Source: an uncultured Clostridia bacterium (GTDB lineage: Bacteria; Bacillota; Clostridia; TANB77; CAG-508). Taken from it: a DNA stretch of 64,000 nucleotides. The position numbers and the translations under genes were made by a program. The notes below the pieces were generated by a model. That model did not search any database and had not been told where the DNA came from. It was given only the letters and a program-made list of their open reading frames with translations. The DNA lies in assembly GCA_944388935.1 (NCBI GenBank), contig CALXKK010000006.1, positions 1 through 64,000 on the forward strand, given 5' to 3'. The stretch's first letter is position 1. Each line of letters starts with the position of its first letter. Positions 3,001 through 4,228 of this stretch are shown here, piece by piece.

Positions 3001-4079
3001 ATTTTTATATTTCCTGAATTATATGTTGAATAATCTGATGGTTCATTTATAGAATTATCATCTAAATATTTCCCTAATGGCAAAGTATAATCATATCTAT
3101 GATAGATATTAGTAGCATATAGTTCTCTTCCATTAATTAAACCCTCATTACTTTGTGTCCAGTCGTTTATTCTATAATTCCATAATATAGGTGTGCATTC
3201 ATTTGTTATATCTTCACGTTCGATTGATTCAAATTCAGTTCTTTCTAATTTTAAATCTATATCAAAGGATATTTCCCCTTTTGGATATTCTACTCCTTTT
3301 AATCCTTTGGATGCATTATCATTAAATAGTTGAACTGCAAAACCATACCCATACATTCTTCCTGAAGTTTCACCTTCACCATAATCAACTGTTGTCTTAT
3401 TTAATAATTTATCCGTATTACTATCTAACTGCACATTATACTTTCCTGTTGCACTAACTATTACTTTCTGTGCTGTTGTCGTAGCTTTTTCTGTATTGTC
3501 ATTCCCATCTATATTAAAGTTAAAAGTAGGTTGTATCTCTGTTCCATTTCCTGCTCCATAAACTTGAAGAACAAATACTAGAGTTTGTTTTGCAGAAGAA
3601 GATGTTTCTGTATCAGCTACTGTATAACTTCCTGTAACTGTTCTACCATCTCCGCTAACTTTTCCATTCACCATCCATTGCATTGAGCTTAAATCCCATT
3701 TCACAAGGTTTGCTATATCTTCTGGCAAAGTAGCTTCTACATTTATTTTAGAACCTGCAATTGCTTTGCTGTCTTTTGAATTCATTGTTAAATCCACTGT
3801 CCATGTTACTTGGTCAAATGAACGAACAATATTGTTGTCTTCTGAACTATCGTTTCCAGGTTCATCATCATTATCAAATGGTCCTGTTCCTGTCTTTGTG
3901 CTAATTATTGCTGCTGAACTTACAACCGCATTTGATTCGTTTGCGTTTCTTATATTTTCTCCAATCCCATTTATTATTCCGTTCCTCATTTTAGGATTTA
4001 AACGAATTGCAGCCACGCACAAAAATGCTAATATTAAAAATACTAGCATTGGCCATTTTATTATTCTCCTTTTATCCAT
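1..4079 (-). CDS. Large multidomain surface adhesin (C-terminus outside window)
   Basis: The open frame continues past the left edge, so about 1359 N-terminal residues are visible. From the ATG ending at 4079 the product starts MDKRRIIKWP and has one hydrophobic segment at about residues 9-26, a signal peptide or membrane anchor. A long Asn/Thr/Ser-rich beta-type ectodomain follows. Near residues 880-930 there is a DUF11-like stretch (YKVTYENKTD). Near 1040-1105 there is an SdrD/Cna-B-like domain with an acidic loop (DNNYNGVIDDGE). Near 1160-1225 there is a second Cna-B domain (VTKVWNDNAD), then MucBP-like repeats (VHHYI.DG). These folds are typical of wall-anchored adhesins; the anchor itself is not in view. 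The ATG at 4079 has no well-placed ribosome site: the nearest AGGAG is 20 bases upstream inside a hairpin. The frame is open upstream through a CA tract, so translation probably starts at 4228 when the tract length permits. Confidence 0.85.
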   Translation of the reverse strand, partial: MDKRRIIKWPMLVFLILAFLCVAAIRLNPKMRNGIINGIGENIRNANESNAVVSSAAIISTKTGTGPFDNDDEPGNDSSEDNNIVRSFDQVTWTVDLTMNSKDSKAIAGSKINVEATLPEDIANLVKWDLSSMQWMVNGKVSGDGRTVTGSYTVADTETSSSAKQTLVFVLQVYGAGNGTEIQPTFNFNIDGNDNTEKATTTAQKVIVSATGKYNVQLDSNTDKLLNKTTVDYGEGETSGRMYGYGFAVQLFNDNASKGLKGVEYPKGEISFDIDLKLERTEFESIEREDITNECTPILWNYRINDWTQSNEGLINGRELYATNIYHRYDYTLPLGKYLDDNSINEPSDYSTYNSGNIKIVQEGSKLKVTINNYGFNGIFPYYRSSWPADNNKVKIYTDNIGTFSVGYMQIFVPDNEASTIEDRNYYLTISDNNMNISSTTGVNINNQMKTSDDSVSTQHFIYKPGSYSQYIELYSGNTRVVGTVESGYGRGDGRVNLEANFTLWSKFSMSATNDYNIQSADKFIKFDGNGIEPRYFENGSKYKIGSMAGNPTFRIWYVTKKDGTNWTSQTEMNNANIVDMDIYDNIENIPKDRICIGVYVETIDGDIPRSTGENNFIVIPLKIKNTATIGKTYGITQRTRMWIDKLDRDKYSIIHPENEMPTPTWDSGNKQYIKTEYDANGNMITGTHSGGNQWGNTVLVVGANIHGNIRAVDSSNANKVNYDLGKNENTVTYSVEPQLDANSNLSSQISNVTLKAEVTLAKGLEYVQGSSKKGESSYTEPEITENSDGSQKLVWYIYGVTSGQTITPITFDANIDNESSNGTQYEAKFVVSEVIGSDGVSKIGNSAISFRTSTTSINIINLESHRLYKEVETPIIEKNGEIKYKVTYENKTDATVPDFQLLDVLPYNGDGRGSSFGGSYTLKNINVVQTVNGSNQALDNLKIYSTNSDNVKGMDAKNTGIGTDSIWESISNGIVNKASKGIAIKGELAGKAKIELEITLATNGNNAKDVYANTAMAQVYSNSEQMETSRVYSRVVNRYIEGKVWLDNNYNGVIDDGEKYLNNVTLKLINTANSSQVATTTTNENGEYKFTDVAKGKYKVQIEVNGTYYDLTEKEVGTNVEINSKFNTNSAETDEITRLDSIQSPELIETNVNAGLTIKKINIPVTKVWNDNADVAKKRPDGIVAVIKNGTAEVGRQELNNGNSWTYTFSVPKYDDNLSEINYTVEEQVKNTDDLNCYSSSTTGSMSNGFTITNTILTGNVIVHHYILDDGDKTTTRVPSTDGGEVQDETIEGVKGDSYTTNPADNVSNYYELAETPDNASGTITEGTTEVNYYYRLKDTSVLVHHYIDGTETQVPSK

Positions 4080-4123
4080 CACTTTTAGAGCAGACTTTTC
4101 TCCTGCTCTTTTTTCTTTTTGGC

Positions 4124-4228
4124 TTAAACTACCTGTGTGTGTGTGTGTGTGTGTGTGTGTGTGTGTGTGTGTACAGCGCCAACGTTTTCAGGCGTTACTT
4201 TTTTGTTGTTTTTGTCCTTCTTACTCAT
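4124..4228 (-). CDS. Phase-variable N-terminal segment of the adhesin, out of frame in this sequence
   Basis: An ATG at 4228, preceded by AGGTG with a 10-base gap, opens a frame reading MSKKDKNNKKVTPENVGAV and then (His-Thr)6 encoded by the CA tract. With 19 CA units it stops at TAA (4126-4124) after 34 residues. With 18 or 21 units the same frame reads through GSLSQKEKRAGEKSALKV straight into the adhesin ATG at 4079 with no stop. I infer that this is the real adhesin start and that the sequence captures the OFF phase. It could instead be an independent leader peptide. Confidence 0.65.
   Translation of the reverse strand: MSKKDKNNKKVTPENVGAVHTHTHTHTHTHTQVV
4134..4172. repeat. Pure TG/CA dinucleotide microsatellite, 39 bases (19 CA units after the GTA codon)
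   Basis: An uninterrupted T(GT)19 run on the plus strand, read as CA repeats on the coding minus strand. It lies 55 bases before the adhesin ATG at 4079. A pure dinucleotide tract of this length is a typical substrate for slipped-strand mispairing. Because 2 bases per unit is not a multiple of 3, each unit change shifts the frame. Confidence 0.97.

Follow-up and report, generated by a model that had tools for sequence, protein, structure and literature searches.

The adhesin gene that is truncated by the contig edge at the start of the window (the whole 64,000-nucleotide stretch analysed here) is very likely subject to slipped-strand phase variation. Judged from the sequence, this reading of the initial annotation is supported by corresponding tracts in the paralogs, an ortholog in the ON register, differences in tract length and intact bodies behind OFF tracts. 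The predicted adhesin switch is one of hundreds of such putative devices in an order of gut bacteria and in some phages, each consisting of a ribosome-binding site, an ATG, a 16-nt motif (AAASCCTTGNGGCTGT) and a dinucleotide repeat, with up to dozens of predicted copies per genome. The earlier proposal of a contingency locus in gut Clostridia is thereby supported, but its view of a single locus was too narrow, as the device and its conserved motif are order-wide.

Leader frame and CA tract of the window locus

Rereading of the sequence bore out the frame arithmetic of the initial annotation (Table 1). On the minus strand, the ATG at 4228 opens a frame that comprises 19 codons followed by A(CA)19, the sole long CA tract of the window (4134–4172), and that stops after 34 residues at the present length, yielding MSKKDKNNKKVTPENVGAV(HT)6QVV* as the OFF-register product. 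The adhesin body, whose frame starts GSLSQKEKRAGEKSALKVMDKRRIIKWPMLVFLILAFLCV..., is open in a register other than that of the leader, two bases out at 19 units. ATG 4228 and the adhesin ATG (4079) lie 149 nt apart (2 mod 3), so that 18 or 21 CA units bring the two back into one register, in agreement with what had been claimed. Likewise, the adhesin ATG was said to lack a well-spaced ribosome site, and we found no Shine-Dalgarno sequence upstream of it, whereas the AGGTG assigned to the leader is present at 4239–4243, ten nucleotides upstream of ATG 4228. This Shine-Dalgarno sequence is short and rather distant from its ATG, which counts against the switch.

Table 1 Sequence features of the adhesin locus in the window
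Feature	Position	Strand	Remark
Adhesin body with membrane segment, SdrD_B, Cna_B and MucBP; 1377 codons, uninterrupted as far as the contig edge	3..4133	-	
Possible intragenic terminator AATGCTA..TTAGCATTTTTG, -9.9 kcal/mol, within the membrane-segment codons	4020..4050	-	
In-frame ATG, candidate alternative start, no Shine-Dalgarno	4077..4079	-	Missing in 4/6 paralogs
Hairpin AGAGCAG...CTGCTCT just past the tract	4087..4109	-	Similar hairpins at the same place in several relatives
GTAGTTTAA, overlapping TAG and TAA that shut both OFF registers directly past the tract	4124..4132	-	
Leader ORF from ATG 4228 as presently read (OFF): 34 codons, then a stop	4124..4228	-	
Dinucleotide tract A(CA)19	4134..4172	-	Proposed slippage site; register-setting
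AAAACGTTGGCGCTGT, local version of the 16-nt motif AAASCCTTGNGGCTGT, abutting the repeat	4173..4188	-	
Conserved 5' cassette	4229..4387	-	Common to six paralogs and the sister-species ortholog
AGGTG, weak Shine-Dalgarno of the leader ATG, 10-nt spacer	4239..4243	-	GGTG kept in 7/7 aligned loci
Promoter-like TTTACT-17-TACAAT in the conserved 5' region	4272..4300	-	Consensus match
18-bp hairpin	4298..4339	-	Upstream of 6/6 paralogs despite differing upstream genes

In the proposed mechanism, translation would start at ATG 4228, and gain or loss of CA units would choose which of the three registers exits the tract; two of them would hit stop codons at once and the third would continue. At the window locus and its five paralogs, this ON register would be fused to the mucin-binding adhesin, the 19 units seen here corresponding to OFF and 18 or 21 to ON. 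Elsewhere in the order, a second predicted output is an ON register that closes on the start codon of the following gene, where the stop/start overlap would couple translation. In a third, only the ON register would bring the ribosome into an intrinsic terminator or past it; since the ON-register ribosome alone would reach the terminator, transcription is proposed to continue only in the ON state. We infer that slippage takes place within the population, that the adhesin is made by ON cells and that the terminators are blocked by ribosomes. MutS is present in the genome, so that the slippage rate would be lower; its presence counts against the switch, and loss of mismatch repair was rejected as the cause on the same ground. 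The locus displays sequence properties of simple-repeat phase variation, with a repeat in the 5' translated frame whose unit is not a multiple of three, an early stop (QVV*) in front of an intact body when out of frame, and a repeat number that varies between near-identical loci.

Two further features of the window are recorded here. A RelB-type antitoxin gene lies directly upstream of the adhesin (4422–4691, minus strand), and the ORF list of the window shows no toxin gene to pair with it. Positions 32000–36200 form a stretch of ~4 kb with a GC content of 6–12%, compared to about 30% elsewhere, which consists of dense AT repeat-like sequence, contains no ORF of at least 60 aa and adjoins two tRNA-Ser genes.

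Paralogs and sister-species ortholog

The window is contig C6 of a genome of 1.63 Mb in 41 contigs (G000), in which we found exactly six CA tracts of at least seven units, each at the same place in paralogous MucBP/Cna_B adhesins. The six tract-bearing genes are all the members of this gene family found in the genome, and because six out of six tracts sit alike in paralogous genes, their placement is not due to chance. The paralogs have in common a 5' cassette of ~200 nt with promoter-like and hairpin sequence, and the genes upstream of it differ. The complete ones contain as many as nine MucBP repeats and eight Cna_B repeats, with a C-terminal membrane segment as the last element. At window positions 1–60 and at the end of L329, contigs with two of the paralogs stop within the same MucBP repeat, likely an assembly break.

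All six paralogs are OFF, five of them in one wrong register and L011 in the other. By chance this would occur with a probability of (2/3)^6 = 0.09 and is unremarkable; it could also mean that the adhesins are usually silent. A dead or mis-assembled gene, carrying a permanent frameshift or a sequencing error in the repeat, might look similar at a single locus, as repeats are hard to assemble and many contigs end at such tracts. However, the six OFF bodies are stop-free over 1,374–3,706 codons counted from the tract (in three cases up to where the contig or the fetched stretch ends), and dozens of species show this arrangement too, each of the three registers being found among them, rendering this explanation highly improbable.

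The frame had initially been followed into an adhesin start at ATG 4079. If translation began at this codon, or at GTG 4082, the upstream frame would be irrelevant and the tract a neutral microsatellite in the leader. The in-frame ATG is indeed present, as part of a GTG-ATG pair at 4082/4079 here and in L011, and an ATG is also found in the sister-species ortholog, but among the six paralogs just two have this start. The other four (L009, L010, L012 and L013) contain none of the codons ATG, GTG and TTG in the stretch from the last stop upstream to halfway through the membrane segment, indicating that an internal start is no general option. Together with the missing Shine-Dalgarno sequence before 4079, the retention, at 95% of 233 homologous sites (6% of Markov shuffles), of a leader ATG that has a Shine-Dalgarno sequence and an uninterrupted frame up to the tract, as well as the presence of the motif at all scorable CA tracts of the genus, this makes a start at 4079 improbable.

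Slippage within a translated leader is supported by the comparison of homologous loci, which had been set as a test beforehand: the upstream frame and the tract are retained in all six paralogs as well as in L067, the ortholog of a sister species. The expected variation in tract length is also observed. The 31-nt tract of L067 is in the ON register, and its predicted (His-Thr) head is joined directly to the same adhesin start. At loci with 90–100% identical flanks, compared between paralogs, species and viral contigs, the tracts measure 30 vs 24, 32 vs 28 and 20 vs 30 nt, which shows that the flanks change more slowly than the tract between them. The long cytoplasmic His-Thr head that had been envisaged is thus encoded as a fusion in the ON frame of L067, but would be one output among several, since related loci use terminators or stop/start overlap.

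A conserved motif abutting the repeats

The motif consensus, AAASCCTTGNGGCTGT followed by A and (NA)n, was derived from 191 unique sites. Searched alone, the motif almost always has a dinucleotide repeat behind it, with CA, TA or GA as the unit, which it abuts without a spacer; in four motif-rich genomes, allowing one mismatch, only one of the copies listed has no repeat behind it. Conversely, a scan for CA tracts without any motif requirement yielded 54 tracts in 10 of the 14 genomes of the genus, and a relative of the motif precedes all 53 scorable ones (at most four mismatches; 0.0002 at random positions). Within the family, 85 of 292 genomes, from 26 of 39 genera, have the motif-plus-CA pattern, the reversed-pattern control being near zero. 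Other families of the order also carry the motif with a repeat, and the motif-plus-CA element was found in 18 viral contigs, where no TA-repeat form was found. Outside the order, the rest of the class gave four matches to the motif, corresponding to chance and none followed by a repeat, and the GGCTGT+CA form was found in 0/398 across the phylum.

Several copies may also be clustered. One locus (L045; G006:C10:1-12500) contains seven motif-plus-CA tracts ~1.5 kb apart and of differing lengths, six of which were seen ahead of proteins of the VPVPNGYVGSK type, so that putatively switchable genes follow one another in tandem. At L060 (G001:C29:9218-9488), two such tracts lie 250 nt apart within one leader; the long register of the first ends at the second, and the two may act as switches in series.

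In the main reading phase of the motif the third codon positions (-15, -12, -9 and -3) are conserved and the second positions -13 and -7 are variable, and the motif is retained, equally well, when the ATG sits in another phase (181/26/15). These properties point to a constraint acting on the nucleotides rather than on the peptide, and peptide selection on the leader was rejected on the same grounds. A hairpin within the motif (AGCC-TTGA-GGCT) was also discarded, as pairing was no better than column independence and there was no covariation. No known RNA family was found at the locus.

The sharp question is why a fixed 16-nt sequence stands ahead of repeats whose unit may change. Tentatively, and in our estimate rather improbably, the motif could be a cis signal for a lineage-specific factor that creates or maintains the dinucleotide repeats behind it, i.e., programmed repeat instability. 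This would be in line with the conservation of third positions, the occurrence in all three phases, the lack of a spacer and the constant place of a repeat whose unit changes; an RNA-level role (pausing, translation) or copying descent could, however, leave the same marks. No candidate factor reading the motif was identified. If the idea holds true, the order would have a dedicated machinery for contingency loci rather than passive slippage. To our knowledge, no common cis motif is known for the Neisseria opa or Haemophilus mod/lic-type repeats, from which the present ones differ in that the repeat unit changes while the flank stays. In the collection of papers that was searched, neither the motif nor leader switches built on dinucleotides turned up.

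Predicted register-dependent outputs

Across 148 non-redundant sites, 29 leaders fuse to a long ORF and 26 end at the next start, most of the remaining ones stopping 20–30 codons on. An intrinsic terminator of -12 kcal/mol or stronger lies within 260 nt at 41% of the sites, compared to 0% of shuffles. As ON was defined as the longest register, a null was needed for asking how many registers reach the hairpin: in 54 terminator-bearing clusters it is exactly one in 81% of the cases, against 39% for the null (p=3e-10). Order-wide, a repeat-bearing leader ORF with a ribosome site is thus often followed by an intrinsic terminator, the OFF registers mostly stopping before it and the ON register within or past it, which is the arrangement of pil1-type leaders. 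Based on this architecture, pil1-type attenuation is probable for the terminator class; at the window locus itself we consider it possible but somewhat doubtful. When compared with synonymous recoding, the terminator-like hairpin in the membrane-segment codons is unusual in five paralogs (0–0.027) but not significant in the window (0.073), which leaves the terminator step weak at this locus. At L031, L105, L134, L178 and many other loci, the U-run of the terminator is often followed by GCG or GTG (TTTTTTGCGT), as is also seen behind the membrane-segment hairpins of the adhesins.

For stop/start coupling, we considered 20 loci with a close next gene, in 11 of which the longest register has its stop codon precisely at +1 or -2 (ATGA/TAATG); the exactly-one-register test was modest at coupled loci (p=0.006).

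A leader peptide followed by a terminator is also the trp/his layout, and the His-Thr leader might stall ribosomes when histidyl- or threonyl-tRNA is low. Such amino-acid sensing is hardly compatible with repeats of CA, TA or GA that encode His-Thr, Tyr-Ile or Arg-Glu even in one genome, with regulated genes for surface and phage proteins rather than biosynthesis, and with a terminator reach set by the reading register and not by codons alone; we consider it most unlikely.

The registers bear on a further alternative. Out of 142 scorable loci, 32 are ON and 57 and 53 are in the two OFF registers; ON is rarer than one third (p=0.006), with the loci being not fully independent. Constant expression through programmed frameshifting of ribosomes on the tract would account for five of the six G000 copies sharing one OFF register, but one fixed frameshift cannot serve all loci when three registers occur, the equal frequency of the two OFF registers speaks against it, and ON copies also exist. 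We therefore assign it a very low probability and retain slippage between registers as the preferred reading.

Genes behind the repeats

The proteins encoded downstream of the tracts include those with type IV pilin-like amino termini, Big_2 and other Ig-like domains, BspA-type LRR and Invasin_D4, as well as glycosyltransferases, a type I restriction specificity subunit, and phage tail and tail-fibre proteins. These functions are those of classic contingency genes. At L143:3146-3703, the tract is fused to an ORF that is probably the sole Methylase_S match among 84 scanned proteins, an assignment made by elimination. The viral contigs L110–L127 carry the motif-plus-CA element, several ahead of tail, baseplate or receptor-type genes, which suggests that these phages may have phase-variable tails.

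Relation to known systems and implications

Phase variation by simple repeats in coding sequence is best known in host-associated pathogens, not in uncultured gut Clostridia. The loci described here resemble the Neisseria opa and Haemophilus mod/lic type (PMC3711429) in the position of the repeat, near the 5' end of the coding sequence of surface or contingency genes, and in their out-of-frame copies, which are truncated early with intact bodies. The combined logic of repeat, leader and terminator has been demonstrated for pil1 and pil3 of Streptococcus gallolyticus with GCAGA repeats (PMC3894217). These loci likewise have repeats in a small leader ORF, a surface structure as output and a minority of ON cells, and a short product that stops before the terminator and a longer one that stops within or past it. 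They differ in being two loci of one species with a pentanucleotide unit, compared to dinucleotides in up to dozens of putative copies per genome here; no shared motif is described in the model and discussion of that study, whereas the present motif is order-wide, and the fusion and stop/start-coupled outputs come in addition here (PMC3894217). The GCAGA pentanucleotide itself was not found; with CA, TA or GA as units, the present leaders would work like pil1 but are not homologous to it by the mark of the repeat. As in trp/his-type attenuation, discussed in the same source (PMC3894217), the position of the ribosome on a leader ORF would decide whether the terminator hairpin forms, but the decision would be taken here by DNA repeat number and not by tRNA charging.

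Taken at sequence level, the logic thus appears to be known, both for simple-repeat switching and for pil1-type leaders, and the present loci differ in the dinucleotide unit, the scale, the motif and the two further outputs. The data suggest that pil1-type repeat/attenuator logic is a widespread strategy. Motif and repeat together provide a sequence handle: a single scan would find the candidate phase-variable genes, among them those for adhesins, pilin-like proteins, glycosyltransferases and restriction specificity, throughout an uncultured order of gut Clostridia and in the phages with this element, and existing long-read metagenomes allow their ON/OFF states to be read out.
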